Positions 9,924-26,347 of a stretch of DNA of 28,206 nt are shown one piece after another. Location of the stretch: the IMG/VR virus record IMGVR_UViG_3300020203_000076, positions 1-28,206 of that record. One strand, 5' to 3'. The first letter of the stretch is position 1, and each line of letters begins with the position of its first letter. The notes under the pieces are model-generated. The model was not told the DNA's origin, ran no database searches, and worked only from the letters and a program-made list of their open reading frames with translations. The stretch comes from a virus. The translations under genes were made by a program, and so were the position numbers.

Positions 9924-10964
9924 CTAGTTGACCGCCGACGTGAACAGGAACCCGCTCACTGGGGCCGTCATTATCGCCCCGATATCGTCGGTGACAAAAC
10001 CCTCATGCCGACGGTGCTTCTTCTCGTAAAACTCCTCGACGCTCATGTCTTCGTAAATGTAAAGCGAGAGAGTTGAGAAGCTGCTTGAATTCGGCAGGCG
10101 TTCGTCAACCAACGCTCCGACCCGCGAACACATAAACGGAGTCGTGTCGGAAAGGATTGCGGCGCGAGTGACCGACGACGCTCCCTTTTTGGTCGTGACC
10201 TTATAGCTGTCCTCGATGACGATTGGATAGCCGTAGAGTCGGTCGGGCAGGCCGAACATGACGTTCTTGCCTTCGCCGCGAATCTGATTCATCGCGTCCG
10301 GCGATCCCTTGATGTAGTCGATCAGTTCCTGGGACAGCGCCATTTTGCGGGCGCAGCCGGGGGACATAACTAACATGATGTCTTCGGCACTGATGCCGTT
10401 AAGCGAGTCCTTTATCAGGAGTTCGGCGACGTGATGAAGCGAACGCTTGATATCAGACCGGGCCGTGGTCGATTGCTCCCAAGTCCCGGCGTTGCCGGCA
10501 ATGGAGGCGACGGCCGAAACGTGGGTAGTATCGTAATTGCCGGACGTGGTGGCCAACGTAACGATCTGTTGAGTCCGCATGCGCATCGCTTTTTCGGCGG
10601 CGACGGATGCGGCTTTGGCTTTCACGTCAAAGCTGGCTTGATCGACGGCTTTATCGCCCAGCACGAAGCCGAACGAGCGGCGATAGGTCCGGTACGTCTC
10701 GAATGTGAATTCTTCGTTGTCGCCGTTCTCGGTGGGGCGATCTTGCGAGTCGGCCCACATATTTTCCAGACCGTTGGTCGAAAGCACTCGGCCCGCTTCC
10801 TCGCGGTTGATCCGAGTGTAGTAACCGACTTCCTTGTCGACGGGTACGATTTGGGCGTACTTGTTGACGGGAAATTTTTGTTGGTTTCGGCTAAAGCTCG
10901 AAACAAGACCGGCCTGCAATTCCGGTACGAATGTGTTGGAACTTTCGGGAACGGTAGCGGCCAT
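9924..10964 (-). CDS. Major capsid protein
   Basis: A 346-residue HK97-fold-type capsid protein of the Mu gp34-like kind. The N-terminus MAATVPESSNTFVPELQAGLV has no maturation delta domain obvious by eye. It includes YRTYRRSFGFVLGDKAVDQA, a helix with AAEKAMRMRTQQIVTLATT, and MLVMSPGCARKMALSQELIDYIKGSPDAM, which resembles the spine and peptide-to-domain transition of capsid proteins. VMFGLPDRLYGYPIVIEDSYKV is the typical 'l.G.Pvvv.d' strand, and the C-terminus contains RRHEGFVTDDIGAIMTAPVSGFLF. The gene is monocistronic between two terminators, as expected for the most expressed virion gene. The ribosome binding site AGAGAGG lies about ten bases before ATG 10964. Confidence 0.9.
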   Translation of the reverse strand: MAATVPESSNTFVPELQAGLVSSFSRNQQKFPVNKYAQIVPVDKEVGYYTRINREEAGRVLSTNGLENMWADSQDRPTENGDNEEFTFETYRTYRRSFGFVLGDKAVDQASFDVKAKAASVAAEKAMRMRTQQIVTLATTSGNYDTTHVSAVASIAGNAGTWEQSTTARSDIKRSLHHVAELLIKDSLNGISAEDIMLVMSPGCARKMALSQELIDYIKGSPDAMNQIRGEGKNVMFGLPDRLYGYPIVIEDSYKVTTKKGASSVTRAAILSDTTPFMCSRVGALVDERLPNSSSFSTLSLYIYEDMSVEEFYEKKHRRHEGFVTDDIGAIMTAPVSGFLFTSAVN

Positions 10965-11102: not shown

Positions 11103-11124
11103 CGGGCTAGGTTGCTAATGCGGA

Positions 11125-11578: not shown

Positions 11579-13153
11579 TTACTTTATGTCGCAATCGACG
11601 CTGTTGTCGGCACAAACCTGGGCGAGTGCGGCCCGGTACGATGCGTTGGGATTTTTCTTTTGCTGTTCGCCCTGCAACTTTTGGGCTTGCTTGCGGAAGT
11701 CCTGCCGCTGGCCGTCGTCCAGCTTGCTGTATTGCAACCGGACGCTACCCGCCGCAGTTCGCAGGCCGGGCAAACTGGCTTCGCCGCGTTGGTAGTGCAA
11801 CTTCACGATGCCGACGTGGCGGTCGAAAAACTCATCGCTTGCGTCGGCAAGGTGCTTCATTTCCTCTTGCGGATCGACGATGATTCCCTCGGCGACGCAC
11901 GATTCAAGTTTGGAAAAACGCAGAGCCGTCCGCTGCTTGGTTTCCATTTTCTTGATCTTGTCGAGCAGGGCATTTTTCTCGGCTTGTTCGGTGGCGAGTT
12001 GGGATTGCAGTTGGGCAAGAGGGTCGGCGGCTTCGCCTGCGGCGGCTGATTTGGAAAAGCTCATGGGTTTTTTCTTGTCCTTGTCGTCGTCGGAATCGCT
12101 ATCCGGCTTGTCGCCGGTCGCTTGGTCTTTGGAGTCGTTGAATCCGTCGCCCGGACTCGAATTTTTCCCGCCCCCCGCAGGCCCTTGTCCGTCGCCGGAC
12201 GGCGGCATATTGCCCGGTGCGGTCGGCGCCATTCCTTCTGCCGGAACGGGCGGCTCGCCCATATCGTCGGGATTGCCGCTTTGCTCCAGTGCGGCGTTTT
12301 CGCCGGTGAGCGGATTAAGCCCTAATTGTTTTTGGAGTTGGGCAAGTTGGTCGCGTAGGTCGGCCGTTTCCTCCTGCACCTGCAACCGAACTAGCTCGCT
12401 CATCGCGTTGGCGATTTGGTCAATGTCGCCCTGGGACAGCGAACCGGCGTGAGTGCTGGGATGAAAATCCTGGTTGTTGCCAGTTCCGCCGTCTGCCCCG
12501 ATTCCCCCGGCTTCATAGTCCATGCGTTTGTCGCGGCCGGATGTTCCGGGGACAAACGTATTTCCGCTTTCGGGCGAGGTGGGCATTGCCATTTGGTAAT
12601 GAAATCTCTGTTGGTCGGGATGGTCGACGGATCGTGCGTAACGCAAGCCCAAGTCGAGTTCCGGGGTTTCACTTCCCAAAAGGCAAACCGGGTCGATTAC
12701 GCCGGTCGTTGGGTCGCCGTTCTTTTGCAGCCAGCATTCCACGCTAAGTCGCGGATACTTTTCGGTTTCTTCCTTGTCCCGCTTGAAAATTCGGAGTTCC
12801 GCAAAGATCGCCATTAACGGCGTTTTGCGGCCGAATTTCCCGGTCCAAAATGGTCCGGCAAAGCCCACCACTTTGCGGTCGTCGCCTGCGTGGGTGAGGG
12901 GATTGTGCCGCAAAACAATTGGCACGAAATCGCCCGTATCCTCGATGCGACGGTTGCAATTTTCGGCTATCGCCTCCATCGCGTCGTCGTCGAATTCAAT
13001 CGTTCCGGGGTCCGCGTCGGGATTCTTTTTGTCTTTCGGAAGGCGGCGGCTGTTCTCTTTGAAGACCGCTACCTTGGGATAGACAACGAATTCCTTTTCC
13101 TCATAACACTCCGCCCGTTCGGGTCGCTTACGCGAGAGAGCGGCGGCGGTCAT
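11579..13153 (-). CDS. Prohead protease fused to scaffold
   Basis: A 524-residue protein upstream of the decoration and capsid genes. The N-terminal domain (about 20-170) has PIVLRHNPLTHAGDDRKVVGFAG (H83/H88) and YPRLSVECW (S137). Their spacing resembles the His and Ser of serine-type prohead proteases, in the style of Mu protein I. The middle (about 200-360) is Gly/Pro/Asp-rich linker containing an inverted copy of the dispersed repeat. The rest (about 365-524) is coiled-coil and helical (LAQLQSQLATEQAEKNALLDKIKKMETKQ, then CVAEGIIVDPQEEMKHLADASDEFF), typical of scaffold C-termini. One polyprotein that directs procapsid assembly and then cleaves itself is the usual function. Residues 194-202 (PESGNTFVP) closely match the capsid N-terminus (PESSNTFVP). 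Confidence 0.75.
   Translation of the reverse strand: MTAAALSRKRPERAECYEEKEFVVYPKVAVFKENSRRLPKDKKNPDADPGTIEFDDDAMEAIAENCNRRIEDTGDFVPIVLRHNPLTHAGDDRKVVGFAGPFWTGKFGRKTPLMAIFAELRIFKRDKEETEKYPRLSVECWLQKNGDPTTGVIDPVCLLGSETPELDLGLRYARSVDHPDQQRFHYQMAMPTSPESGNTFVPGTSGRDKRMDYEAGGIGADGGTGNNQDFHPSTHAGSLSQGDIDQIANAMSELVRLQVQEETADLRDQLAQLQKQLGLNPLTGENAALEQSGNPDDMGEPPVPAEGMAPTAPGNMPPSGDGQGPAGGGKNSSPGDGFNDSKDQATGDKPDSDSDDDKDKKKPMSFSKSAAAGEAADPLAQLQSQLATEQAEKNALLDKIKKMETKQRTALRFSKLESCVAEGIIVDPQEEMKHLADASDEFFDRHVGIVKLHYQRGEASLPGLRTAAGSVRLQYSKLDDGQRQDFRKQAQKLQGEQQKKNPNASYRAALAQVCADNSVDCDIK
12167..12183 (-). repeat. Dispersed G-rich repeat, copy 8 (inverted)
   Basis: GGCCTGCGGGGGGCGGG on the minus strand, coding PAGGG in the scaffold linker. 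Confidence 0.7.
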
Positions 13154-13194
13154 GGCTGGATAAATAAAACGGTGGGGAACATTGAAAATCGAAA

Positions 13195-13233
13195 CGAAAA
13201 AAGCCGGAATCTCCCATTAGGAAATTCCGGCTT
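13195..13233 (-). terminator. Rho-independent terminator upstream of the protease/scaffold gene
   Basis: On the minus strand AAGCCGGAAT ... ATTCCGGCTTTTTT gives a ten-base perfect stem with a T run. It stands 107 bases after the zinc-ribbon gene and about 42 bases before the protease ATG. Confidence 0.9.
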
Positions 13234-13239
13234 CGGCGG

Positions 13240-13286
13240 TATCCGATAGCTTTCGGTGAATCGTTGAAGATTGACCGTATCGGATA
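13240..13286. repeat. Inverted repeat TATCCGATA / TATCGGATA
   Basis: Perfect nine-base inverted repeat (13240-13248 and 13278-13286) with a 29-base centre, in the 107-base gap between the zinc-ribbon gene and the terminator. It could be a protein-binding site pair or an RNA hairpin. No other function is visible. Confidence 0.4.
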
Positions 13287-13340
13287 AGTACGCGAAAAAC
13301 GAAAGTCGTTAACAAACGTTTTTGGCTGAAATATTGCGTT

Positions 13341-13712
13341 TTAGAAAATAGTTCCGTCAGTTTCGGTCGGCCGGGATTGATTTTTGGTGTTGAACGACCT
13401 GAACTTCGCCATTTTGTCGCTCGGGTCCGGTCCGGTTTTTTCTCGTTCCTGGTTCACCAAGAAATAGGTCAACCGTTCAACGGCCTTGGCGAGCCGGGCG
13501 ACTTGATTATCCTCTTGGTCACGATGTTCATTCAGGATTGACTCGCCTCGCATAAACTCGCGGATCGCCGAGAGTTCGTAGGCAATGATCCGCTCGGCCT
13601 TGGTCATGCCGATTAGGCAGTCGGAACAGGCGCGTGGGAATCCGTCCGAGTAGCGGGCGACGGTAATTTCCTTACCGCATCCGGAGCATTTTGGGGGTTG
13701 GGATTTGGCCAT
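13341..13712 (-). CDS. Small zinc-ribbon protein downstream of the sigma-fusion gene
   Basis: A product of about 123 residues with a CSGCGKEITVARYSDGFPRACSDC segment: two CxxC knuckles spaced like a zinc ribbon. A helical middle (AERIIAYELSAIREFMRGE; VARLAKAVERLTYFLVNQ) and a polar tail follow. The family is not recognised. It lies 16 bases after the sigma-fusion gene and is the last gene before a strong terminator, so it is co-transcribed with that protein. An accessory or modulating role for it is possible but speculative. ATG 13712 is preferred; a TTG at 13718 in the same frame is an alternative. Confidence 0.65.
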   Translation of the reverse strand: MAKSQPPKCSGCGKEITVARYSDGFPRACSDCLIGMTKAERIIAYELSAIREFMRGESILNEHRDQEDNQVARLAKAVERLTYFLVNQEREKTGPDPSDKMAKFRSFNTKNQSRPTETDGTIF

Positions 13713-13728
13713 TGCCAAAGTTTAACCG

Positions 13729-15297
13729 TTATTCCGTTGTCGCGGCAACCGTCACGCCGAATTTTCGGTAAATCGTGAGTATCGCCTCTTCCCGCAAGCG
13801 TTGAAATTGAAGTTTTCGCTCTGATTTGCTGACCGGGAATAAATTGCCGCTTTTGTCTTTCTTGTTGATGCCGCGGCCGCTTTCAATGCTTTCGCGGATT
13901 TTTTTCAGGCCGGTCAGGATCGTGCGGCTGACATATGGGTCCGATACATTGTTTTTTCTGGCAACTTCGCTTTGCTGCATTCCGTCCATATAAACCGCTT
14001 TAATCAGTTCCTGTTCCGTCTGGCTCAATCCCTCGAAATGTTCCGAGATAACGTCTAAGTCGAGCCGGTCGCCCGGTCCAATGATGCTGCTTTCGCGGTG
14101 GTCGGGGATTTGTCCGGCCAGCGATGCCGCTTCGCCGTCGCTGCTTTCAGATCGTTCGGCATTCAGACTGGCAACAGGTCCGCCGTCACGTTTTTTTCGC
14201 TTCGACCTGCGAAGTATTTCCTTGGCGTGATTCTCGGCCACTGTGCCGATCCACATTCCGAACGTCGCCTTGGTCGAGTCGTAACTGTCCTGACCCTTGA
14301 TCGCATTGAGTTGTACGTCTTGGATAAAGTCGTCCATGTCCTGCTCTTTGACGTGGAACGACTTACCTTTCTTGCGGATTAGGTTAGTCCATTGGAAAAG
14401 CTGCGTTTCAAATTCCTTGGGGGTCGGCTTGCGGGAAGGGGTGGCGGCGGGAACGGGAGCGGCGGGGGCAGTGGGAGCGGGAGTCGATTTGGCCTGCGGG
14501 GTGGAGAGAGGTGCGGCTGCTGGTGCGGCGGTTGTCGTCCGTGGTTCCGCAACCGGCGATGCCTTCTCCGCGATTCCGATCCGATGCCCCTGCTTCACTA
14601 GATTTTCCAAGTGACCTTGCGACTCGTGGTGCGGAAACGATTCGACGCCAATCGCTTTCCGCAATCGCTCGCCGTCGCTGCCGTGCGCTCGGTAGGTATT
14701 GTTATGCTTGAAAATCAAAATGCCCTTGTCGCCCGCTGACGTTAGGTCCGGCAGTGCGTTCCGGATTTCCTCGTAGTTGCTCGGTAGCAGCGGCTTGGGC
14801 GGCTCCTTGGCGATTCCCGCCTGGTGCAATGCCTTGTGGGCCGCATGTTTCGCTAGGTCGATATGATCGTGAAATAAAGCAAGTTGCGACTTGGGGCTTG
14901 CGGGCCGCGGCGTGGTCCCCTGCGTAAATCCTTCCCCTAAATCGTCGTATCCGAAGTGTTCCGGCTGGAACATTGAAGCTTGAATATCGCTGCTGGCCTT
15001 CTTGCGAAATTTGCCCCCCTGCCCTCGCGGGTGCTTGCTTTCGTCCTCGGCGTTCCATGATGATGCTTCTTCGCCTTGGATCGTGCTGCGTAAGCGGCGT
15101 CCGTCTTGGACTACGGCGGGGTTGGTTTTTCGCGGCGGCTCTTGGCCGGTGGGAGCCGGGGCGGGCGAGAGATTGTTGAATAGTCCCGGCTGTTGATATG
15201 GGGAATTTTTATGAAACAACAACCGAATAGCGTCCGTCAAATTCTGACGGGCCTGCGGGAGGGTGAAGGTTTCGGCGGCGTTTTGATTTTTAGTCAT
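13729..15297 (-). CDS. Multidomain phage protein with MutS-I-like domain and complete sigma-70 regions 2 and 4
   Basis: A 522-residue protein with unusual architecture. Residues 1-140 contain the motif ESKHPRGQGGKFRKK (86-100), of a type common in phage head and polyvalent proteins. Residues about 190-245 (ILIFKHNNTYRAHGSDGE ... FPHHESQGHLENLVKQGHRIGIAE) resemble the MutS N-terminal domain I. A Pro/Ala linker (250-292) follows. Residues about 296-370 match sigma-70 region 2: DMDDFIQDVQLNAI, then FGMWIGTVAENHAKEILRRSKRKKR. Residues about 422-470 match region 4: LSQTEQELIKAVYMDGMQQ, then SEVARKNNVSDPYVSRTI as the HTH. A basic C-terminal helix ends it. The sigma part is ECF-like (no region 3) and looks intact. 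It is encoded in the head-gene operon, six bases after the DUF5664 stop. Predicted role: redirecting host RNA polymerase, perhaps after injection. The role is inference; the sigma homology is strong. Confidence 0.85.
   Translation of the reverse strand: MTKNQNAAETFTLPQARQNLTDAIRLLFHKNSPYQQPGLFNNLSPAPAPTGQEPPRKTNPAVVQDGRRLRSTIQGEEASSWNAEDESKHPRGQGGKFRKKASSDIQASMFQPEHFGYDDLGEGFTQGTTPRPASPKSQLALFHDHIDLAKHAAHKALHQAGIAKEPPKPLLPSNYEEIRNALPDLTSAGDKGILIFKHNNTYRAHGSDGERLRKAIGVESFPHHESQGHLENLVKQGHRIGIAEKASPVAEPRTTTAAPAAAPLSTPQAKSTPAPTAPAAPVPAATPSRKPTPKEFETQLFQWTNLIRKKGKSFHVKEQDMDDFIQDVQLNAIKGQDSYDSTKATFGMWIGTVAENHAKEILRRSKRKKRDGGPVASLNAERSESSDGEAASLAGQIPDHRESSIIGPGDRLDLDVISEHFEGLSQTEQELIKAVYMDGMQQSEVARKNNVSDPYVSRTILTGLKKIRESIESGRGINKKDKSGNLFPVSKSERKLQFQRLREEAILTIYRKFGVTVAATTE
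14426..14444 (+). repeat. Dispersed G-rich repeat, copy 9
   Basis: GGCTTGCGGGAAGGGGTGG, opposite the codons for the Pro-rich linker (TPSRKPT) before the sigma domains. Confidence 0.6.
14491..14506 (+). repeat. Dispersed G-rich repeat, copy 10
   Basis: GGCCTGCGGGGTGGAG, opposite codons for STPQA in the same linker, 65 bases from copy 9. Confidence 0.7.
14895..14904 (+). repeat. Dispersed G-rich repeat, copy 11 (core only)
   Basis: GGCTTGCGGG opposite codons for RPASPK in the N-terminal part of the sigma-fusion protein. Confidence 0.45.
15250..15269 (+). repeat. Dispersed G-rich repeat, copy 12
   Basis: GGCCTGCGGGAGGGTGAAGG opposite codons 11-17 (FTLPQAR) at the N-terminus of the sigma-fusion protein. 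Confidence 0.7.
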
Positions 15298-15303
15298 GTG
15301 CGG

Positions 15304-15858
15304 CTATGCGGCGGGTGGTTTGGCGGGCGGCGTGCATCCGGGGCCGCGTAGGTGGCCTTCATTAAGGTGTGGCCAAAGTTCGATGGAATGAATGGCGGCT
15401 AGTAAGTTCCATGCCGCGTGGGCAAGGTGGGGTTCGGATCGGTCGCCGCCAAGGAATAGGTATTGGTGTCGCAACGAGTGATTGAGTAGGTCGTGGGCGG
15501 CGAACCCGGACTCCCAGTTAAAATCTCCATAGCGATTTGCACCCTCCCTGCATGTTTCTGCTACCGCCTTCAGTCCAATAGGGCTAATTAAATCCCATCT
15601 TTCACTGTCAGCGTCAGCCGATCTTTTTGCTCCCGTGGCGTGGATTCGGACCGTTTCGTCCTGCGGCTGACCAAGACAAATATTGGATTGCTTGCGTAAG
15701 TCCTTCGATTGTGTCTCCGAGTCCGCCAAGCGAGACGTTGCACCTACGGCAAAGGATTCCACGGACGGCTCCCGTTGTGTGGTCATGGTCAACGCATGGC
15801 CGGTGTGGCCCGGTTTCTTTTGCTGAAAGAGTTTTGTCGCAAAGCTCACAATGCCCAT
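15304..15858 (-). CDS. DUF5664 dATP/dGTP diphosphohydrolase-like protein, 5' end inside the endonuclease VII gene
   Basis: The conserved part is residues about 66-160. It contains DETVRIHATGAKR, WDLISPIGLKAVAETCREGANRYGDFNWESG, HSLRHQYLFLGGD, and then HLAHAAWNLLAAIHSIELW. This fits the phage DUF5664 family (Pfam name: dATP/dGTP diphosphohydrolase, N-terminal), which would act on the dNTP pool. The family-like DETVRIHATGAKR segment lies in the region also coding for endonuclease VII, so translation must start inside that gene. ATG 15858 has a good ribosome binding site (GAGGG, six bases away). ATG 15786 is the alternative and lacks one. No ATG, GTG or TTG occurs closer to the domain except a TTG near 15729. 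The overlap with the endonuclease gene is 245 bases from ATG 15858. Confidence 0.65.
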   Translation of the reverse strand: MGIVSFATKLFQQKKPGHTGHALTMTTQREPSVESFAVGATSRLADSETQSKDLRKQSNICLGQPQDETVRIHATGAKRSADADSERWDLISPIGLKAVAETCREGANRYGDFNWESGFAAHDLLNHSLRHQYLFLGGDRSEPHLAHAAWNLLAAIHSIELWPHLNEGHLRGPGCTPPAKPPAA

Positions 15859-16198
15859 TGCATTCCCTCAAGAATTGTTCGTACTGGTCGATGGTGATTC
15901 CATAACGCTTGGCGAGATTCCATTCGCGGCGGTAGCTCCGCATGTTGGCTTGGTATTTTTCGGTTTTTCGGTGTCCAGCGGCCTTGCGCTTGATTTCTTC
16001 CGCGTAATGCAGTGCGTAGTTCTTTTTGCTGGCTTTTACCTTATCCTTGTTCGCAAGTCTCCATCGTGTGTTTTTGGCTTTAATGCACTCCTTGCAGGTG
16101 GCGTACTTGCCGCATAAACTGCTTACCGTGTTGTGGTATTCGCTAAGTGGCTTTGCGGCTTTGCATTGGCGACAAACCCTGCTTTCTTTGTTGTTCAT
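15614..16198 (-). CDS. Recombination endonuclease VII-like HNH nuclease
   Basis: A 194-residue protein. The N-terminus has a zinc knuckle (CRQCKAAKPLSEYH ... CKECIKAKN, residues 9-43), and a basic helical middle follows. The C-terminal half carries the endonuclease VII signature CELCDK ... PCVDHDHTTGAVRGILCRRCNVSLG (117-157), with catalytic-type DHDH and paired CxxC zinc ligands. Such enzymes cut branched DNA before packaging, and related HNH enzymes assist terminase. The start is ATG 16198, which overlaps the DUF4406 stop as ATGA, a sign of translational coupling. A longer upstream frame exists but lies inside the preceding gene. The 3' 245 bases are shared with the DUF5664 gene in another frame. 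Confidence 0.9.
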   Translation of the reverse strand: MNNKESRVCRQCKAAKPLSEYHNTVSSLCGKYATCKECIKAKNTRWRLANKDKVKASKKNYALHYAEEIKRKAAGHRKTEKYQANMRSYRREWNLAKRYGITIDQYEQFLRECNGHCELCDKTLSAKETGPHRPCVDHDHTTGAVRGILCRRCNVSLGGLGDTIEGLTQAIQYLSWSAAGRNGPNPRHGSKKIG

Positions 16199-16527
16199 TC
16201 GGACTCCTCTTTGTGAAATAAAATTAGCTCTTTTATTTCCTTGAAAATCGGAATCCCGTGCTGCTGTGCGTGCTGGCATTCCATTTCCGCCCCCTTGCTC
16301 TTGCCGGGCAGGAGCAAAATCGCGTCCGAAGCCGCTACCCACGGCAGGTCGATGTCGATCCATGTTTGGTGCGACAAATCGTTGGCGTAAGGGTAATAGC
16401 ACGAAAGATGCGGACAGAACGGAGCGAAGCCCGCGTTGATTAAAGTTAACGCCGCGTCGGTCGCCTGCTTGATGTTATGTGCGCGGTTGCCGAGAGTAAT
16501 TGGGCCGCTGATGTAAATGCGTTTCAT
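16195..16527 (-). CDS. DUF4406 / nucleoside deoxyribosyltransferase-like protein
   Basis: A 110-residue protein. It starts MKRIYISGPITLGNRAHNIKQA and has the DUF4406 pattern: YISGPI at the N-terminus, a helix with A...L..aGF.PFCPHLS, a WIDIDLPWVAASDAILLLPG segment, and a GAEMECQHAQQHGIPIF end. The fold is that of nucleoside 2-deoxyribosyltransferases. The GAxxE (G79-E83) region would hold the catalytic Glu and S7-G8 the nucleotide loop. It probably handles nucleotides or bases, with unknown substrate. The start is ATG 16527; the open frame extends upstream to 17070, but that part is a shadow of the metallophosphoesterase gene. Confidence 0.85.
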   Translation of the reverse strand: MKRIYISGPITLGNRAHNIKQATDAALTLINAGFAPFCPHLSCYYPYANDLSHQTWIDIDLPWVAASDAILLLPGKSKGAEMECQHAQQHGIPIFKEIKELILFHKEESE

Positions 16528-16568
16528 TTCTGGCTTGCTCCGACGGTAGTCATGGAATGTCGCCGCTT

Positions 16569-17618
16569 CTAGTTGCAAAATAGCTTCCTGACGCTGACCA
16601 TGCCGCGACGATGATCGCACAATGCGAACGTCTGTAGGGGGTCTTGGTATGGAAAGCCAAGGAAATTTCCGTATGCCCCGTATCCAATGAGACTGCCATT
16701 GGCTTGAAAGTTTGGTCCCGGCCAATAGGTGTGCTTGTCGCCAAAAAAATCGAAGTCCGCTTTTTGCTTTTCGTTTCGGCGGTAAATCTGCTTGATGACG
16801 GGAATGGTCATGCCGCCGATGCCGCCCTGATATTTGATCGAGTCGCCGTGCATAAAGCGGCCAACGTGACCGCCGCCAATGTCCAGCATTGCAACGTAAC
16901 CGGCGTGCGGCGATAGGCTGTGCCAACCTAGCCTCGTGCCTTTCAGGCTGCGGGCCAACTGACAATACATTCCGTATTCGTGACTCGTTGCCGTGCGATT
17001 TGCTGCTTGGGTTTTCTTGGTGTGCCGTCCGTGGTTTCCTACCAGGGAGACAATATGAATCTGCGAGCACCCTGAATTCTTCTCAAACGACCGCAACGAC
17101 GTTTCAAGCAATTCGCCCACAAACAATGTTTCCTCGATTGGGGGCATTGCGTTAGTTTGCGATAGCTCATCGTGAATCCATCCTGTAATAAAATCGCCAA
17201 GCAGTCCGATAACCAGCGTGTCAACCGTCGCCATGCCCCTCGCATCCTCAATCAGCCGCAACGCATTTTGGGTAACTGCTTCCGCCCGCTTCTTGGCAAT
17301 CGCGGGGCTGTATTCATTCAGTCCGTTGACTTGCTCCGGTCTTACCGTCTCGCCGACGTGCCAATCGCTGAATATTACAATCGCCGTCGCTGGGTGTTTC
17401 TGGTCTTTGGCAACGCTCTTGAACGGCTTAGTTGGTTTTCGGTTAGTTATCTCAGCAAAGTCGGCAACTTCTTGTTTCAATCCGTCAATCGTTTGGTAGC
17501 TCGATTTCAGCTTGGTTTGTGCCGTGGCCAGTTCGCGTTTTAAACGGGCAAATTCCCGCTCGCGGTCCTGTGCGGCTTGCTTCTCGATCGCGGCAGATAG
17601 TGTTTTAGAATTCGCCAT
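16569..17618 (-). CDS. Calcineurin-like metallophosphoesterase
   Basis: A 349-residue protein. Residues 1-55 form a charged coiled coil. The phosphoesterase domain follows, with motifs SDWHVG (84-89: D85, H87), LLGDF (D142), GNHGRHTKK (194-202: N195, H196), MHGD (256-259: H257) and FFGDKHTYW (291-299), the last in place of the usual GHxH. The four main metal-binding motifs are intact, so it is likely active on phosphodiester or phosphomonoester substrates. Similar phage proteins are common near DNA metabolism genes. The start at ATG 17618 overlaps the small HTH gene by 14 bases. The last motif reading GDKH is a deviation worth noting. Confidence 0.88.
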   Translation of the reverse strand: MANSKTLSAAIEKQAAQDREREFARLKRELATAQTKLKSSYQTIDGLKQEVADFAEITNRKPTKPFKSVAKDQKHPATAIVIFSDWHVGETVRPEQVNGLNEYSPAIAKKRAEAVTQNALRLIEDARGMATVDTLVIGLLGDFITGWIHDELSQTNAMPPIEETLFVGELLETSLRSFEKNSGCSQIHIVSLVGNHGRHTKKTQAANRTATSHEYGMYCQLARSLKGTRLGWHSLSPHAGYVAMLDIGGGHVGRFMHGDSIKYQGGIGGMTIPVIKQIYRRNEKQKADFDFFGDKHTYWPGPNFQANGSLIGYGAYGNFLGFPYQDPLQTFALCDHRRGMVSVRKLFCN

Positions 17619-17856
17619 TCAGCCACCCGGTTGCGGTTGAGCGTCCGACTCCGAATTCCTCCCTGAGGACTTTGGCTATTGTGTTTTTCTTGTGCGATAA
17701 ATTGCCTGCCGCAAATTCCGCCTGAATTTCCTTAACTTCGCATTGTTGTGCTGGCGTTAAATCAGCAAACGCATTGCGTCTGACGACTGGCGGCATTGCC
17801 TTAATCCTCGCCAGTAACGATTTCGGCTTCGCCTTCGTTCGCTTTGCTTTGCTCAT
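17605..17856 (-). CDS. Small HTH protein
   Basis: An 83-residue protein with a lysine/arginine-rich start (MSKAKRTKAKPKSLLARIKA). A helical middle (AFADLTPAQQCEVKEIQAEF) and a C-terminal helix-turn-helix (NTIAKVLREEFGVGRSTATGWLNG, about 58-81) follow. The HTH at the extreme C-terminus and the basic arm suggest sequence-specific DNA binding. It lies between the zincin and the metallophosphoesterase in a chain of tightly packed genes. The target is unknown. Confidence 0.75.
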   Translation of the reverse strand: MSKAKRTKAKPKSLLARIKAMPPVVRRNAFADLTPAQQCEVKEIQAEFAAGNLSHKKNTIAKVLREEFGVGRSTATGWLNGEF

Positions 17857-17868
17857 CGTCGCTCCCCG

Positions 17869-18165
17869 TTAGTCGTGGTGCTCATCCGACAAGTAGTCCA
17901 GCGCTAGTAGCATCGCGGTCAAATCGCGTGCGGCTTCCTGTACATAAAACTCATCAATCCACGGGAATATTGCGTGCAACAGTTCGTGAATGCTGACTTC
18001 GGTTTTTTCGAGTTGCGAAAGTCGGTCGGCGACATTCAATACCTTGCCGCGATAGTTACACCAGCCGCGACTCTTTTTCAGTTTGCAAACTCGATGCGTC
18101 CACGCTTGCGTTCCGATTTCGGACGCCGTAATCGTGATCGACGTATCTCCCGGTCGAGTCGTCAT
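17869..18165 (-). CDS. Minimal HExxH zincin-like protein
   Basis: A 98-residue protein with HELLHAIFPWIDE (residues 60-72). HELLH is a zinc metalloprotease motif, and a downstream Glu (E72 or E77) could be the third ligand, followed by a helix (AARDLTAMLLALDYL). The N-terminal 50 residues are beta-rich and basic. Phages often encode such minimal zincins of about 100-150 residues near structural genes. Their targets are unknown. It starts six bases after the portal stop, so it is translated from the same message. Confidence 0.75.
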   Translation of the reverse strand: MTTRPGDTSITITASEIGTQAWTHRVCKLKKSRGWCNYRGKVLNVADRLSQLEKTEVSIHELLHAIFPWIDEFYVQEAARDLTAMLLALDYLSDEHHD

Positions 18166-18171
18166 GGGTCG

Positions 18172-21100
18172 TTAAATCGCGTATAAGTCGGGGTTGGCCT
18201 GGCGTTCGTAAATAATCTTCAGCGCGGTACGACGGCTGGGCGTAACGAATTCATCGTCGATCAATTCGTGGTGCGACTCGCCGCCGTCGCCGCCGTCAAT
18301 AGATTTCTGGAACGGCAACGGCTTACCCTCTTTCCCGCCGGCCTCTGCATCGTGGTCCCAGAACGCCTCGTCCTGCTTGGCGTTCATCTGCTTCAAGTAC
18401 CTGACCGCCTCGGCGATAACTTCGTCGTGATGGCGGGCGGGGGGTGGCGTGACTCCTTCTTTGATTCGGTCCCAGATATCTTGCAAGTTGCGGATCGCCA
18501 GAGTCGAAAGTTCGCGCTGGGCAATCGGCACGATTGTGTCGAGTCCCTTGACGTTGGCGTAGTCCCCGCCTCGGCTGTCGTTTTCCAGTCGGTTAATGTC
18601 GGCTTGCGTTAAGTTAGTCATTTTTCGCAATTCTTTTTTCTCAGACTCGCGGTCCTTGTACGACGATTGCAAGTCGGAATAAATATCGTCGATCGCTGAA
18701 TTTAAGTCCGCCACGCTAACGCCATGCTCCTGGGCTGCTCGTTCGATTCTTTTTCTTGGCGTGTTTTCCGCTTCGGCGCGGTTTTGCCCCCATAGCGAAG
18801 CAACATGGCGAATCGCCCCGCTCGAAGTTTCTCCTTTTTGTCCTTTGGTGGCGACGGTTTCTCGATTCGCTCTGGAAAGAAAATCCTGGAGTTCTTCGGC
18901 GTTGCGGACGATGCCCTCGTCAACTGCCTTTACGAATTCAGCAAGGGCCGATTCGTCAACGCTTAATCCCGCGCTGGTTAGCGCTCTCGCTCCGCCGTCG
19001 CTTCCGATAATGCCGCGTTTTTCTGACGGCATTGCGGCAATCTTTTGTTCTCGCTGAATCTTCATCGCCTGCTCGTTCGCCTGGTGCTTCTCGGTTGCGG
19101 CGGATTTTCTTTTTTCATTCGCCTCTGACATTTTCTGGTTGTGCTCGGCGACTTTCGCTTTCGCTTCGTCTAGCGATAGCTGGTTGATTTGGTCAACCGT
19201 CATGCCGCCGCGAACTTTCAGGATTTCGGTTGCCGCCACGCCAATGACGTTAGACGTGGAATTTTTGTCGGCGACTTCCCCCTTCCGCTTGCCGCTAGTC
19301 GCCGTCTGATCTTTCGACTTCTGTGACCGTGCCAATACTTCGGGATATTCCGAGAGAACATTGACCGGCACTTGCTCGCCGCGTAGCAATGCGTCGTGGA
19401 TAAATTGCTTGTGCTTTACTACGGGCAGGTGCTGGCTAAATTCGTCCCGCGTCATTTGGTGAAACGGCGTGCCGCTTGGTCCCTTGCCGGTGCGGAGCAT
19501 TACATCTGCGGCCTGCTTTTGGGCGGCGGTTTGGTTTTTCGCTTCCCACTTCTGTTGGCCTAGCTCGTCGTCCTTGGTCCGCTTCGCCTTCCGCTCGCTC
19601 TCCTTGTCGATCATGGATTGAATCGAGAGGGCATTTTTGGCGACGGATTGCTGGGCCGACTGCTTGCGAATATCGTGAAGTTCCGCTTGCCGCTGATTTG
19701 CGGATTCTGTTTTCGATTGTTTCTCTTGGTCTGCGGCCTGCGTTTTCGATTGCTTCTCTTGGTCTTTGGCTGTCGATCCGCTTTTCTTTTTTTCCGCCTC
19801 GATATGTTTTTCGAGTTTCTTTTTTTCCTCCTCGATTTCGCTCTCGACCTTGGTGTGGTAGTCCTCACCCGCCTTCTCGTGTCTCTTGGCCAAAGCGTCG
19901 GCGGTGCTGGCCCGCGATTTCAATGCCGCGACGTGCGTTTTCCAGTCCGCATGGCCCTTGCGGTCGAGCTGGCTTGCATTGGCGAGTTCATGCCACTTAT
20001 TGACCGCGTCGGAAAGCTCCTGGCGGAGTGTGTTAGCCCGTTCGCGGTGTGGCGCGGGGTCTTCGTAGGGGAGTTTTTCGGCGGGGGGTGCGGCCTGGTT
20101 TGAACTATCCGGAGTTTCCGGAGAGTCGGCCTGCGGGAGGGGTGGGGGCTGTTCGCGGCTGGTTTGCTCGCCGGTGTCGAGAAAATTGGTTAGATCGGAA
20201 GATTTCCCGGAAAGGCTTCGTACTGCTGCGTGGTATGCTCTGGTGTCGCCACCGGTTTGCCTGGTTTTTTCAAGAGCCTTTTCTAGTAGGCTGCGACTTA
20301 ATCCGGCACCAACGTCGCTCATCACGTCATGTTTCAGTGATTCCGTTGGATTGATTCCGGCTTTGGCAAGCAATGAATGTCCGTGGTCGCGTCCCAAAAT
20401 TGACAGTACTCTTGCCTTTTGGTTTTCGTCGAGTTCCTTGTCAAAAGTGCGTTGTCGGCTGGCTCGAACGGCCCTGTCTCCTGGGCTTAAGTCGTTTGGG
20501 TTTTCTTTGTGAATTCCGAGTTTCCCGGCGATAGCTCTCCCTGCTCCTTTGATCGAGTCGTCGCTAAGGGCGGCGGCCGCTTTGTTGGCGAGTCCGGCGA
20601 TGGGGTTGGTGAGTCGGTCGAGAATCGTTGGTTTTTGGGCGGAAGTCCGGTTCGAGTCCGGTTCGAGTCCGGTTTGTGGTGGATTTGCGTTATTTGGCTG
20701 GTTTTGTGCATTCAAACCGGAGTCCGGTTCGGTGACGTTTGGTCCGGTCTGGGGTCCGGTCTGGGGATTTTGCAACGCCGGTTGCCCCTTCATCGCCCGT
20801 GCCACCGGTCCCGTCATTGCCGTGTAATGGACCTGCCATTTCGCCCCCTCGGCCTGTGGCGGGATAAGAACCATCGCCCCCGCCGGCGACGAAAATCCGA
20901 TAGCCCCTTGACCGTGTGACTGGCCAAGGTCAACCACGCGGCCACCGCCAAATTCCTTGCCCACTTGGGCGGAAAACTCCTGATGCAATCTGCCGACCTG
21001 TTCCGGGGCAAAGCTGTGGGTTGAATATTCGCCTCCTTTTTTGAATTGCGGGGATGCTTGCAATGCTCGCATGACGCCAGCGGCGGGGCCGTGGATCGCG

Positions 21101-23328
21101 TGAAGCTGCTGCCCGGCGTATTGCTGGCGTTCGTGGAGCGGTGGGCCGTCGCGGAATGATGGCTTGGGTGCGGCAGATTGGCTCTGGTCTTGGCCGTCTG
21201 CCGCGGCACCGCTGGCGGGTTGTGCCGCGGCCTGCGGTGCTTTCGGTGGTTGCTGGGCTTGCGGGGGCGGGGATGCTGGTCGCGTGCCGATGGGTGTGCC
21301 GGTCGGAATCGGTTTCGCCATTGGAATTCGATTCTGCTGGCCCTCTTTCGCCCGCTCGTCGGTCGGGATTCCCCCCTTGTTCGGCACTCCGCCGCCGATC
21401 TGCGGCGTGTTCGGCGTAGCCGTCTTGGTCGCCTGGACCTGCTGGGGATCGGTCGGCTTTGTCGATTCCCAGCGGCTATTGGGATTAAATTTAAGGGTGC
21501 TCTGACCTTCGTTTTTGGTGTCGCCGACGTGGTGCTCTGGCTGGTCGATGCCGCCACCGCCGCCGCTGGTCCCGCCGCTCGGCATGGTCGATTTAAATAA
21601 ATTTTCTTCCTCCGCCTTAAAATCAAGGCGAACAAAATTTTCTAAATCGTGCGAGTAATTGAATGCGACTTGCTCTTGGCTTAGCCCGGCAAGTGGGCCG
21701 AACAAGTCCTCTAAATCTTCGCCGCCCGGCCCTGCCGCCCCTCCCGCTGGCCCTTGCTGCGGTTGTCCATCCGGCCCTATGCCACCGTCGCCGTTCGGGT
21801 CGTTGGGATCGCCGCCCATGCCCCCCATTTCCATTTCCTGCTGCTGCCACAATCGTTCCTGCTGGCGAATCTGCGGATTCTGCAAAACCTGATCGTCGTC
21901 GGTCGGGGTGCTCGCCCCGATGATGTCCATTACGTCGCTTTCCTTGATCCGCGCTCCCATATTCCAAGCGGCCTGGAACGCGGAGAGCTTCTTTTCGGTT
22001 TCGCTCGACTCGGTGTCAATCTTGAAATAAACGTCGATATTCTTCGCGCCGGGAAAATTCATATCCTTGATGTTTTTCAGGGCGTCGCAAGTAATCGTCT
22101 CCTCTAAATTCGTCGCGTCGTATTTGGAAATCTGCAAAAACGTCGCGTAGTGCAAGTCGGCAAGCCCCGAGCCAAGTCCGGTTGCGTCCGATTCGCTCGT
22201 GAGATTTTGACCAAGGATGTAGCGTTTGATCCGATGACCGAAAAGCTCGTGGCAGATTTCCTTTAGCGCTGCCGCCCCGGCCGGGTTGGGGTCGATGCGG
22301 TCGATGCCGAAGGCGTCCATCGCCGGATCGCCGGACATTCGCGGCATGAGGATGACGTTGGACGGGCCGCGTTCCATCGCCGCCTCGCGGGCTTTGTTCT
22401 CCCCCTCTTTCGACCCGAACGGAAAATAGTAAATCCAAATTCCTTGCGAAGTCCGCTCGATAAACTCCATTAAATAAGCAAGGATTTCTTGCATTTGAAT
22501 CCACGTCCAGTAGATTCGACTGCGGACGCCAAGCCCGTGAACCGCTCCCGCCGAAACGTAATCCTCAAACGCGGCGTCCTCGACCATGTGCTTGTGTACG
22601 ACCATCAACTTGCGTTCCCACGGCCTTAGAAAATACGCAAGTCCAAATTCGGTCGCCTCTAAAACGTGGTCGCCTTGCAGGATATCGCCGGGCATATGCG
22701 CCCCGGTGACCTTAATGCCGATTTGATCCTCATCGAACCTTCCGCTGCCGTCGTCAAAGCGAAATGCCAATTTGTCGCCGTTGATCGGCTTCCATCCGGC
22801 GATGCCCCAGAACTGTTGTCCGTCAACATGAATGCGAGAATACTTCATTTGCACGGCGTAGCGGCCGTACCAAACGGCTTCCAATAAATTCCGACGCATT
22901 TCCGTGAATCGCGGAGTTTTCTTTAGGATCGAAGTCAACTTGTCGCAAAGCGATTTCTGGTCCTGGCTTCGCGGGTTTTCCGGTTCGATGTGCCAATTGA
23001 GCAACGCGACGGCACGCTGACGGGCCTCGACGCATTCCATCACAAAGCAATCCCGCCGCATTCTTAATGCGTTCTCACGGCTATGCTTAAACGCTTCGTC
23101 GGGGTTGCGGTAGGCGTGTGCGGCCGATGTGGCGAGTCCTTGGAACGTCGTAATGTGCTGGATCGGGAAGCGGCCGTAATTCGGCGGCTGGTCAGTACCG
23201 GTCCCTTGCGACAAGTCCGCCTCGCGGGTCTGCATTTGCTTACCGAGACGTGACGGCAATTTTTCGCCTGGGCGGTAGGTTTTCCCGCCAGCGCGAAGTC
23301 CTGATTCCGGTGCAAGATATTTAGGCAT
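18172..23328 (-). CDS. Giant portal protein (DUF935/Mu gp29-like) with polyvalent-type C-terminal extension
   Basis: A 1718-residue protein. Residues 1 to about 480 are a Mu gp29-like portal. Key segments are RRDCFVMECVEARQRAV (91-107), EAVWYGRYAVQMKY (150-163), FLRPWERKLMVVHK (233-246) and KRYILGQNLTSESD (368-381). The portal forms the dodecameric DNA gate bound by terminase. Usual length is about 450-550 residues. From about 500 to 905 come Gly/Pro/Gln-rich linkers with a small globular part (about 725-845). Residues about 1090-1280 are a long charged coiled coil. Residues 1288-1333 (FHQMTRDEF ... HDALLRGEQVPVNVLSEYPEVLA) match a signature common in injected polyvalent proteins. A helical region ends it. 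Two dispersed-repeat copies lie in linkers. ATG 23328 is used, with no strong ribosome binding site. A sequencing-level fusion cannot be excluded, but the frame is intact. Confidence 0.85.
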   Translation of the reverse strand: MPKYLAPESGLRAGGKTYRPGEKLPSRLGKQMQTREADLSQGTGTDQPPNYGRFPIQHITTFQGLATSAAHAYRNPDEAFKHSRENALRMRRDCFVMECVEARQRAVALLNWHIEPENPRSQDQKSLCDKLTSILKKTPRFTEMRRNLLEAVWYGRYAVQMKYSRIHVDGQQFWGIAGWKPINGDKLAFRFDDGSGRFDEDQIGIKVTGAHMPGDILQGDHVLEATEFGLAYFLRPWERKLMVVHKHMVEDAAFEDYVSAGAVHGLGVRSRIYWTWIQMQEILAYLMEFIERTSQGIWIYYFPFGSKEGENKAREAAMERGPSNVILMPRMSGDPAMDAFGIDRIDPNPAGAAALKEICHELFGHRIKRYILGQNLTSESDATGLGSGLADLHYATFLQISKYDATNLEETITCDALKNIKDMNFPGAKNIDVYFKIDTESSETEKKLSAFQAAWNMGARIKESDVMDIIGASTPTDDDQVLQNPQIRQQERLWQQQEMEMGGMGGDPNDPNGDGGIGPDGQPQQGPAGGAAGPGGEDLEDLFGPLAGLSQEQVAFNYSHDLENFVRLDFKAEEENLFKSTMPSGGTSGGGGGIDQPEHHVGDTKNEGQSTLKFNPNSRWESTKPTDPQQVQATKTATPNTPQIGGGVPNKGGIPTDERAKEGQQNRIPMAKPIPTGTPIGTRPASPPPQAQQPPKAPQAAAQPASGAAADGQDQSQSAAPKPSFRDGPPLHERQQYAGQQLHAIHGPAAGVMRALQASPQFKKGGEYSTHSFAPEQVGRLHQEFSAQVGKEFGGGRVVDLGQSHGQGAIGFSSPAGAMVLIPPQAEGAKWQVHYTAMTGPVARAMKGQPALQNPQTGPQTGPNVTEPDSGLNAQNQPNNANPPQTGLEPDSNRTSAQKPTILDRLTNPIAGLANKAAAALSDDSIKGAGRAIAGKLGIHKENPNDLSPGDRAVRASRQRTFDKELDENQKARVLSILGRDHGHSLLAKAGINPTESLKHDVMSDVGAGLSRSLLEKALEKTRQTGGDTRAYHAAVRSLSGKSSDLTNFLDTGEQTSREQPPPLPQADSPETPDSSNQAAPPAEKLPYEDPAPHRERANTLRQELSDAVNKWHELANASQLDRKGHADWKTHVAALKSRASTADALAKRHEKAGEDYHTKVESEIEEEKKKLEKHIEAEKKKSGSTAKDQEKQSKTQAADQEKQSKTESANQRQAELHDIRKQSAQQSVAKNALSIQSMIDKESERKAKRTKDDELGQQKWEAKNQTAAQKQAADVMLRTGKGPSGTPFHQMTRDEFSQHLPVVKHKQFIHDALLRGEQVPVNVLSEYPEVLARSQKSKDQTATSGKRKGEVADKNSTSNVIGVAATEILKVRGGMTVDQINQLSLDEAKAKVAEHNQKMSEANEKRKSAATEKHQANEQAMKIQREQKIAAMPSEKRGIIGSDGGARALTSAGLSVDESALAEFVKAVDEGIVRNAEELQDFLSRANRETVATKGQKGETSSGAIRHVASLWGQNRAEAENTPRKRIERAAQEHGVSVADLNSAIDDIYSDLQSSYKDRESEKKELRKMTNLTQADINRLENDSRGGDYANVKGLDTIVPIAQRELSTLAIRNLQDIWDRIKEGVTPPPARHHDEVIAEAVRYLKQMNAKQDEAFWDHDAEAGGKEGKPLPFQKSIDGGDGGESHHELIDDEFVTPSRRTALKIIYERQANPDLYAI
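19710..19765 (-). repeat. Tandem 33-base repeat in the portal coiled coil
   Basis: TTTTCGATTGYTTCTCTTGGTCT occurs at 19710-19732 and 19743-19765. It encodes DQEKQSK twice with an 11-residue period. Confidence 0.75.
20128..20148 (+). repeat. Dispersed G-rich repeat, copy 13
   Basis: GGCCTGCGGGAGGGGTGGGG opposite the codons for PPPLPQA (residues 1061-1067) of the portal extension. Confidence 0.75.
20645..20760. repeat. Clustered GTCCGGT microrepeats in a portal linker
   Basis: GTCCGGT occurs six times within 120 bases (20645, 20656, 20667, 20722, 20742, 20754), the first three with an exact 11-base period. It encodes TGP and PDS/PDSG turns in an unstructured linker. This looks like slippage-type expansion. 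Confidence 0.7.
21256..21273 (+). repeat. Dispersed G-rich repeat, copy 14
   Basis: GGCTTGCGGGGGCGGGGA opposite codons for ASPPPQAQ of the portal linker. Confidence 0.7.
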
Positions 23329-23838: not shown

Positions 23839-24780
23839 CTATTTGCCGCTGCGCCTGCTGCTGAATGTCTGCTCGGGCAATGTGCTTACGAAGTATCCCC
23901 GTCGCCCTTCTCGCTGCACGGTGCTGGCAATCGCCCGCGTCTTGAATCCATCGCTGGTCGCTCGCCGCGGAACGTACCACATTGGAATTCCATCGTGGTC
24001 GATCAATGCCGCGTTCACAAGCGAGTAGCGATATTGATGCCCGTAAATCGTTCCGCGAATTCTCAATTTATCCCAAACGAATTTCCCCTTGCTGCTGGCA
24101 AGTTTCATTTGGGTAAAAATTCCTGGCGGTACGCCGAAATAAGCGTAGGTCGGTCCCTCTGTATTCGACTTCCCTTTGATCGCTCCCTTTTCCCCGCCCA
24201 GTTCATTCCATCCGACTCGGTTCTTGCGTTTGTGAACTTTGTCGCCGTCAAGGATCGGGGCTTTGAACGAAACGTAAAGCGTACCGAGTTTTTGGCCCGC
24301 GGGGCGGTGGTAGGTGAATGAATAGACGTTGCTGCTCTGCGGCGTCATTACGACTTCTTGCGCTCGCCGCTCGACTTCGCCTCTCGACCAATCGTCTTTC
24401 CAGCCGCCCGCTTTCACTCGCGGATCGCCTCGCCCGCGTCCTAGCCGATGATCGCCGCCGTCGCCTCCGCTTCCTCGCCCGTCGCCGCCGCGTCCGCCGC
24501 CACCTCCGCCCCCTCCCGTAGGCACCGGCGATTTAGCCGTCGCTCTCGCGGCCGTCATTCGCCCGGAACTATCGACCTCCAGTCGGAAGCCGGTCAAATG
24601 CAGCATTGCAATACCGGTTGCGACTTCCTCCGCCTTAGCCCTGCGAAGCAGCTTCCCCGCCGCATCGCCGAGTAGTCGCTCAAATTTCCGTCGGTCGTTG
24701 CCGGACTTCTCTTTAATGAGTTGCAGTAGCTCGTTGGCGCGGACTTGCGACTTGTCGTGACTAAATCGGGTGATTGCCAT
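23839..24780 (-). CDS. KTSC-domain protein with interrupted domain
   Basis: A 313-residue protein overlapping the large terminase 3' end by 20 bases. Residues 1-70 are helical. Residues 88-125 are a Gly/Arg-rich low-complexity linker (a run of eight Gly). Residues about 148-255 resemble a KTSC domain (SSNVYSFTYHRPAGQKLGTLYVSF ... YAYFGVPPGIFTQMKLASSKGKFVWDKLR). It is split by a charged insertion at about 176-208. The C-terminus is basic. KTSC domains occur in phage and prophage proteins, often near head or replication genes, and lack a firm function. The domain call is by motif memory. Confidence 0.65.
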   Translation of the reverse strand: MAITRFSHDKSQVRANELLQLIKEKSGNDRRKFERLLGDAAGKLLRRAKAEEVATGIAMLHLTGFRLEVDSSGRMTAARATAKSPVPTGGGGGGGGRGGDGRGSGGDGGDHRLGRGRGDPRVKAGGWKDDWSRGEVERRAQEVVMTPQSSNVYSFTYHRPAGQKLGTLYVSFKAPILDGDKVHKRKNRVGWNELGGEKGAIKGKSNTEGPTYAYFGVPPGIFTQMKLASSKGKFVWDKLRIRGTIYGHQYRYSLVNAALIDHDGIPMWYVPRRATSDGFKTRAIASTVQREGRRGYFVSTLPEQTFSSRRSGK

Positions 24781-26347
24781 ACTTTCCGCCCTTCCTTGCC
24801 TGAACGGAATTTCTGTTGCCGCCGCTGCCGCCGTTTCCGCCGCTGCTTGATCGCTGCGATACCGCCGAACCGTAAGCCCGCAGTCTGGCGGGAATCGGAT
24901 ATGACTGGTTGGTTTGCTCTCGCGTCCGCCAAACGCCTTCGGGCGCTCCGTTAGTCATGTTCATTTCTTCGGTGGCCAGCGCGTATCGAAGTGAGTCAAT
25001 TCCGTGGTTAAAGAAGTCAACCGGCACTTCGTTGGGGTTCTTCTGCTTGCCGCTTCCTTCTCTCCCCGTCGGGTCCGCCCAGCGATATGCCGGGATTTCC
25101 TCGATCAGTTTTTTGCATGTCGTGAAAACATACAGCCGTGACTTGCCGGTTGCCTTATTTATCGTCATCAATCGCCGCATAACGTCGATGCCGCGATGAA
25201 TGTTTTTGTTGGCTAGTGCGGTGTGAATGCCTCTGAGCGATAATTCCGCTCGCTCTTGCGGGTCGTGGTCGCTGTAGGTTTGGCCGATATGCGGATCGTC
25301 TAAATTCCAGTATCGTTCCTTGATCTTCGCCGCGTGGTAATCGTGGGTCTGCTGGGACTCGTAATGCTCGTCGTAAACGTAGTAAACGCCGTCGTAATTC
25401 CGGGCAATCCACAAGCAACAAAACGGATTGTTGTATCCAAAGTCGATGCCCCTCGTTCTGTGCCAGTCGTGCGGAATGCGGAACGGCTCGATAACGTGGT
25501 GGTTCGGTCGCCACTCTTTGAATACCTGCCCTCGCCGCGTGCTGAATGCCCCGATCTGGCGAGTCTCCCGCATGTCCTCCGGGATGCTCTCTAGGTAATC
25601 CCGCATAAACCCTTCGGGCAGGGTTTCGTTTTTTAGCGAATTGAGATGAAAAAACCTCCACCCTGGCGGCGGCTTATGATAGCGATTCTCCCATTCGGTT
25701 GTCGGCATATCAATCGGCGTGAAGTCCGCCCACCCTGGCGAACCGTAGTCGCGGCAGCGGGCTTGTACTTCTTCGACAATCGACATTGGGACCGCTTCGT
25801 TGAACCAATATCCTCCGATTGAGCGGGCCTGAAATAGCTCGCGTCCCTGCTCGTAGGATTTGAATTCGATTGTCCATCCGTCACGATCCGGATGGAGCGG
25901 GTGGCGCAACACTACTGCGGCCGGCCAATGTCGCTTTGAATCTCTCCATGAAATGTGCTTTATCAGTTCCGGCGGAATGAACGTCGATAGTTTTTCGACC
26001 CAGCAAACGGCGCAAGCCAGCTCGTAGCTTGCTCCGATTACCCAGAAGGGGATTCCTTCCCGCATTGGCATTGTGCCAAGTAAATACCGTGCCGTTTTTA
26101 AAGCTGCCGCCGCGCTCTTGCCTGACCCGTTTCCGCCAAGGCAAATCGAAAACTTGGCGTTGCTGTTTACGAACGACGTTTGCTCATCGTAGTCCTCGGG
26201 GCAATCGGGCCTCGGTCGAAAAGTGTAGTACGGATGGGTAATCAGGAGGTGAATCTTCCGCTGCAATTCAAAATCATCCCCCGCAAAAATCGCTTCGATT
26301 TTTTCTAGCGTTATGCCTGCGGGGAGTGGGGATTTTGTTCCGTGCAT
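24761..26347 (-). CDS. terL: Terminase large subunit
   Basis: A 528-residue DNA packaging motor. The ATPase domain carries Walker A GGNGSGKS (71-78) and a Walker B-like strand GGYWFNEAVP (178-187). In the latter the usual Asp is Asn183, with Glu184 kept as the catalytic carboxylate. The nuclease domain is RNase H-like. Its metal-binding acidic residues are in RGIDFGYNNP (D302), YYVYDEHYE (D326) and YSDHDPQE (D360/D362), and the domain ends with FFNHGIDSLRYAL. Length is normal for TerL. ATG 26347 is used; AAATGCACGGAA occurs twice around the start, a small direct repeat. It is preceded by the multi-HTH gene (35-base gap) and followed by the KTSC gene (overlapping). Confidence 0.95.
   Translation of the reverse strand: MHGTKSPLPAGITLEKIEAIFAGDDFELQRKIHLLITHPYYTFRPRPDCPEDYDEQTSFVNSNAKFSICLGGNGSGKSAAAALKTARYLLGTMPMREGIPFWVIGASYELACAVCWVEKLSTFIPPELIKHISWRDSKRHWPAAVVLRHPLHPDRDGWTIEFKSYEQGRELFQARSIGGYWFNEAVPMSIVEEVQARCRDYGSPGWADFTPIDMPTTEWENRYHKPPPGWRFFHLNSLKNETLPEGFMRDYLESIPEDMRETRQIGAFSTRRGQVFKEWRPNHHVIEPFRIPHDWHRTRGIDFGYNNPFCCLWIARNYDGVYYVYDEHYESQQTHDYHAAKIKERYWNLDDPHIGQTYSDHDPQERAELSLRGIHTALANKNIHRGIDVMRRLMTINKATGKSRLYVFTTCKKLIEEIPAYRWADPTGREGSGKQKNPNEVPVDFFNHGIDSLRYALATEEMNMTNGAPEGVWRTREQTNQSYPIPARLRAYGSAVSQRSSSGGNGGSGGNRNSVQARKGGKYGNHPI
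26314..26332 (+). repeat. Dispersed G-rich repeat, copy 16
   Basis: TGCCTGCGGGGAGTGGGGA opposite codons 6-11 (SPLPAG) at the terminase N-terminus. Confidence 0.65.

Follow-up and report, generated by a model that had tools for sequence, protein, structure and literature searches.

Gene order of the window and the portal-protease slot

The window, by which we mean the whole stretch of DNA analysed, is a linear virus record of 28.2 kb. Its genes run on the minus strand in the order terminase, KTSC protein, portal, cargo, protease/scaffold-like protein, major head protein, Gp36-like protein and tail genes, with the following features around and within the gene of interest, P0001.

24761..26347, minus strand: terminase large subunit (Pfam/PHROG)
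18172..23328, minus strand: ORF of 1718 aa for a Mu-type portal, its C-terminus greatly extended (aa 89-470 match Portal_Mu, 2e-38)
13341..18165, minus strand: portal-protease cargo slot (Pfam/PHROG; slot length varies widely in relatives)
13729..15297, minus strand: P0001, 522-aa putative polyvalent protein with a sigma factor (open frame; Pfam and PHROG domain matches)
15007..15057, minus strand: predicted linker motif W..ESKHPRGQGGKF of P0001 (aa 81-97; motif confined to portal and slot ORFs of the clade)
14554..14730, minus strand: MutS-I-like segment of P0001 (aa 190-248; sub-threshold Pfam match, 0.0022; reciprocal phmmer match with the L019 protein)
14428..14553, minus strand: Pro/Ala-rich linker of P0001 (aa 249-290; from sequence; low confidence in the AF2 model)
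14197..14364, minus strand: sigma-70 region 2 of P0001 (aa 312-367; Pfam 9e-7; fold match to sigmaE region 2)
13891..14034, minus strand: sigma-70 region 4 of P0001 (aa 422-469; Pfam 9.5e-5; fold matches to region 4 domains)
13200..13234, minus strand: terminator-like hairpin, 16 pairs and a T run (consensus match only)
11579..13153, minus strand: protease/scaffold-like gene closing the slot (PHROG head maturation protease, 3e-4, weak; position conserved in relatives)
9924..10964, minus strand: major head protein (PHROG 2e-5; 43-48% identity to relatives)

The 522-residue frame is exactly as the initial annotation had given it, on the minus strand, which was not stated there, and the portal-to-scaffold position is equally borne out, with the Mu-type portal on one side and the protease/scaffold-like gene on the other. 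The description of this setting as a head operon holds in part: the gene does lie between portal and protease, but its immediate neighbours are cargo genes inserted between the two, not head genes. The slot contains small ORFs, the sigma fusion, a 125-aa ORF and, at 15304-17618 (minus strand), endonuclease VII, DUF4406, dATP/dGTP-diphosphohydrolase-like and phosphoesterase-like genes, the last assigned by inspection. Because the slot genes are mostly closely spaced and the strong terminator-like hairpin stands past the cargo genes and ahead of the protease gene, the P0001 gene appears to belong to the portal transcription unit, amid cargo genes rather than head genes proper. A promoter scan yielded fewer sites than expected by chance. 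Elsewhere in the window, about 1,200 aa of the C-terminal portal extension (18172-21900, minus strand) carry no recognised Pfam domain, and a lone plus-strand ORF of 198 aa with a signal-peptide-like start (3179-3775) is embedded in the minus-strand tail region.

An ECF-like sigma factor within P0001

From its N-terminal side, P0001 has an HPRGQGGKF motif (aa 89-97, the end of ESKHPRGQGGKF at aa 86-97) and a weakly matched MutS-I-like domain; a Pro/Ala linker then leads to sigma-70 regions 2 and 4. In Pfam, Sigma70_r2 (aa 312-367, E 9e-7) and Sigma70_ECF (aa 344-459, E 2.6e-4) exceed their curated cut-offs, Sigma70_r4 (aa 422-469, E 9.5e-5) falls slightly below at 22.3 bits against 24.1, and MutS_I (aa 212-248, E 0.0022) is just short. 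The MutS-I-like segment also links P0001 to the protein of a relative, L019, weakly and in both directions (phmmer, whole-protein E 1.5e-4 and 5e-4). Among PHROGs, P0001 is best matched by a family of RNA polymerase sigma factors (E 9e-17). Only the region 2, region 4 and ECF models of Pfam match the sigma half, regions 1.1 and 3 being absent, and the Pfam and PHROG matches of P0001 include no RNA polymerase catalytic domain; nor is there a polymerase family among the Pfam matches of its sigma-bearing relatives.

A model of the sigma half (aa 291-475), built with three relatives, gives a pLDDT of about 90 for regions 2 and 4 and low confidence for the linker joining them (model residues 82-122). 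ECF sigma factors make up most of its top Foldseek matches in the PDB. On superposition, region 2 fits that of sigmaE at 1.7 A over 79 residues (Z 11.5), and region 4 fits its known counterparts at 1.4-1.9 A. Pfam, PHROG and the modelled fold all agree that the two sigma regions reported in the initial annotation are real, and the regions taken with the predicted fold identify the sigma half as an ECF-like member of the sigma-70 family. The full protein modelled alone in AF2 has a mean pLDDT of 49, and we therefore make no claim about the fold of the N-terminal half.

A clade of uncultured phages and its probable host

Relatives were gathered via the portal, with profile queries built from alignments. 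The portal profile recovered 47 viral loci. Genome assemblies contributed seven more, all but one of them assigned to Planctomycetes, and a second profile gave further records; prophage-like copies are mostly within Planctomycetes MAGs, those of L067-L069 being in Schlesneria MAGs. The clade, which is uncultured, probably infects Planctomycetes. The window portal had no match in 50,697 phage records, and its full-length sequence and the major head protein (MCP) found nothing as single queries. No isolate was matched. P0001 itself found no relative in viral or genome contigs and, among phage records, had only weak matches to stand-alone sigmas. An MCP profile run against 294 genomes of the phylum of our Planctomycetes reference matched the reference genome alone. 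With P0001 as query, all matches in 199 genomes of the same phylum were weak (best 4e-8, 24-40% identity), and a cellular donor can therefore not be named.

Most records that show both ends keep the order KTSC-portal-protease-MCP, with rearrangements in L041, L054, L055 and L062. Portal and protease are almost adjacent in L035, L037, L039 and L066, and up to about 9 kb apart in other records; being nearly absent in these minimal relatives, the slot is therefore accessory cargo.

What the slot and the portal extensions carry

Several relatives also lengthen the portal ORF itself with cargo domains. ART-PolyVal occurs within the portal ORF of L020 and L042 and also in L044, InPase within the portal ORF of L005 and L029 and also in L019 and L069, and ArdcN in L051, where it has a small ORF of its own; LPD1 and methyltransferase domains are likewise found in slot ORFs or portal extensions. 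Of these, ART, InPase, LPD1 and ArdC-N have been described in polyvalent proteins. Iyer et al. inferred that such proteins are packaged and injected, arguing from their fusion to portals and their virion context; by the same authors' account, MutS-I is known outside MutS only from this class (PMC5512222). The comparison with polyvalent proteins made in the initial annotation is strengthened by these canonical domains in the same slot. Other observations on slot and portal ORFs of the relatives concern L026, where a Mu-type portal and the catalytic domain of a topoisomerase IB (PF01028, E 7e-16) share a single 1,826-aa ORF (9860-15340, plus strand); L020, where portal, ART-PolyVal and a sub-threshold S-adenosylmethionine lyase domain share one of 1,969 aa (9842-15751, plus strand); and L063, whose slot holds a trypsin-like protease (17974-19584, plus strand; PF13365, E 2e-18).

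The N-terminus of P0001 had been called head-protein-like, a reading that does not hold as such. The HPR..GKF/W motif occurs 25 times in portal-to-MCP ORFs (89,920 aa), portal extensions included, and not once in 130,991 aa of other ORFs from the same loci, where shuffling predicts about 0.1 occurrences in either set. On this distribution, HPR..GKF is a predicted linker motif that belongs to portal extensions and the other portal-to-major-head-protein ORFs and occurs nowhere else in these loci.

Sigma domains in other phages of the clade

Sigma regions were sought in 63 viral records belonging to the clade, the majority of which are fragments. Five have a sigma domain, two of these being copies of one phage, which leaves four phages besides that of the window. 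All four have the sigma either in the portal-protease slot or within the portal ORF. Were location random, the chance of this would be about 4e-4, a rough figure given that the records were fetched by their portals and several are fragments.

The architectures vary. In G001, a 1,577-aa slot ORF carries regions 2 and 4 near its N-terminus, followed by HPR modules, a MutS-I-like domain and InPase; regions 2 and 4 are matched at 2e-17 and 2e-13 in L019. In G038 (L051), a 1,034-aa ORF directly after the portal gene has a sigma resembling that of P0001 (BLASTP 4e-14), and L051's phage alone was found when viral contigs were searched with a sigma-domain profile. In G023 and G046 (L036 and L059), regions 2 and 4 are found within a 1,419-aa portal ORF. 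On one side of them is the portal core, which has 55% identity with the L051 portal, and on the other a C-terminal region that the L051 portal likewise has (E 7e-31); the sigma is therefore an internal domain of the portal rather than an accident of ORF joining. This ORF is intact in both assemblies, which differ by 1 base in 4,260 (99.98% identity). In G356 (L134), finally, a 1,201-aa portal ORF contains a diverged sigma-like segment (profile E 1e-8; PHROG sigma 3.5e-7), of which Pfam recognises region 4 alone, below threshold, with no match to region 2. The shared C-termini of the L036 (9845-14104) and L051 (9881-14473) ORFs, both on the plus strand, end in a hydrophobic, transmembrane-like stretch and then basic residues. 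A region-4-like HTH in G010 (141-aa ORF, one TGA inside the profile match) was not counted as a sigma factor, being away from the portal and without region 2.

The homologues keep the fusion, and the sigma is not a separate late gene in any of the four phages, standing instead in large ORFs (1,034-1,577 aa) and in two of the four inside the portal ORF. The sigmas are diverse, with 18-28% identity to that of the window, and domain order and partners are shuffled among G001, G038, G023 and G356. This diversity and variable order suggest that the sigma module has been recruited repeatedly, as expected for polyvalent proteins.

Is the sigma factor delivered with the particle?

Judged from sequence, P0001 shares two traits of polyvalent proteins. 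First, it combines several distinct domains in one polypeptide, and these are shuffled among relatives. Second, it is encoded among the virion genes of a portal-terminase phage, between portal and protease/MCP. Relatives are in addition predicted to be fused to a virion protein, the portal, in L036/L059 and, in diverged form, in L134. We therefore favour, at a probability of roughly two in three, the reading that P0001 is a polyvalent virion-cargo protein whose effector is a complete ECF-like sigma factor that is packaged, injected and redirects host RNA polymerase to phage promoters. The fusion would be made late, together with the head genes and portal, and incorporated into the particle, covalently as a domain of the portal polypeptide in G023/G046 and G356. 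It would enter the host along with the DNA, the linker modules possibly being cut by the neighbouring protease to free the sigma, and in the new host regions 2 and 4 would bind core RNA polymerase so that phage promoters are selected at once. What is encoded is a sigma on the portal or in portal-proximal cargo; from this we infer packaging, injection, processing, RNA polymerase binding and the targeting of early promoters.

The portal fusions predicted in relatives point strongly to packaging. Counting against it, P0001 and the portal of the window are separate ORFs, and since its slot neighbours are DNA-metabolism genes, residence in the slot is alone no proof of packaging; a portal extension could, moreover, be cleaved off before packaging. 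Other points against the favoured reading are that no more than five of the 63 clade records have a sigma domain, that the sigma of L134 is diverged, and that the region 4 and MutS-I matches of P0001 fall just short of the Pfam cut-offs. An unpackaged fusion might instead act in the producing cell, for example on late genes, its place in the head operon reflecting co-expression only. Phage sigma factors are usually intracellular regulators, the sigma genes of the other phages examined are stand-alone (in phiRTG5 outside the head genes), and the products of the DNA-metabolism genes in the window slot do not have to be packaged. Such a regulator would, however, leave unexplained why sigma is joined to MutS-I and HPR modules or to InPase, why it is present inside a portal polypeptide and why the sigmas are confined to the slot, and we consider it unlikely.

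We give still less credence to the idea that the sigma-like part has lost its sigma function and become a DNA-binding or structural module, for instance one aiding packaging or ejection. The strong divergence from the window's sigma and the degenerate region 2 of L134 are what this would predict, but the window keeps both regions with the expected fold, the strong matches of L019 argue against decay, and a bare DNA-binding module has no need of region 2. That misassembly or a chance ORF has joined a sigma gene to an unrelated gene, as might be feared of a single metagenomic contig whose whole P0001 is without close relative, is already refuted by the relatives, since independent phages have the same type of fusion in the same slot and two assemblies agree on an unbroken portal-sigma ORF.

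To return to the delivery of a sigma factor with the particle, ART (L020, L042) and sigma (L036) stand at equivalent positions of the portal ORF in different clade members, which suggests that they solve one problem in two ways, that of redirecting host RNA polymerase at entry. On balance we think it probable, if somewhat less so than the reading of P0001 itself, that these presumed Planctomycetes phages deliver a sigma factor with the particle, as portal domain or portal-proximal cargo, interchangeably with ADP-ribosyltransferases, and this has to our knowledge not previously been described.

Comparison with known systems

P0001 resembles known phage polyvalent proteins in being multi-domain, in lying among the virion genes of a portal-terminase phage and, through its relatives, in portal fusions and in ART, InPase and LPD1 companions of the same slot, and would do so too in its sub-threshold MutS-I-like segment; it differs in that its effector domain is a sigma factor (PMC5512222). 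Sigma factors are never mentioned in the polyvalent survey of Iyer et al. 2017 (PMC5512222), and in the available part of the same authors' 2021 jumbo-phage survey sigma factors and polyvalent proteins are handled separately (PMC7824862). The new elements are thus the sigma effector and the portal-sigma fusion, within the known class of polyvalent proteins. In the open-access literature we found no phage case of a virion, packaged or injected sigma factor, which is weak evidence and no proof of novelty. In the Twort-like phage fRuSau02, Sig was detected by LC-MS in particle preparations and judged by the authors to be co-isolated (PMC5618024). Stand-alone phage sigmas such as Twort-like Sig and that of phiRTG5 are, like P0001, phage-encoded, but each is a separate small gene; the other phage sigma genes we examined are ORFs of about 190-270 aa, except for a longer overlapping frame in one unannotated fecal record. 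Cellular ECF sigma factors (e.g. E. coli sigmaE) have the same regions 2 and 4, the same folds and a flexible linker between them, but are small stand-alone proteins usually paired with an anti-sigma, whereas the sigma of P0001 is part of a larger phage protein.

The virion RNA polymerase of phage N4 is alike in being transcription machinery delivered by the particle for the first phage genes; N4 brings its own polymerase, whereas P0001, without a polymerase domain, would redirect the host enzyme. Phage T4 Alt, a head-packaged ADP-ribosyltransferase, likewise redirects host RNA polymerase at infection, as P0001 is presumed to do, and in relatives of the window phage the equivalent slot holds ART domains. 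Alt modifies RNA polymerase chemically, whereas P0001 would act as a specificity subunit.

Two virion-borne ways of starting phage transcription are known: N4 and jumbo phages package a polymerase, and the Alt enzyme of T4 modifies that of the host. To package a sigma factor, and so bring only the specificity subunit, would if true be a third and simpler way. The portal-sigma fusions make packaging testable, as sigma peptides must then occur in particles unless they are cleaved off, and they raise the question of the route that a sigma domain located at or close to the portal would take to RNA polymerase. More generally, the slot together with the HPR..GKF linker may serve as a marker for further injected effectors in uncultured phages.
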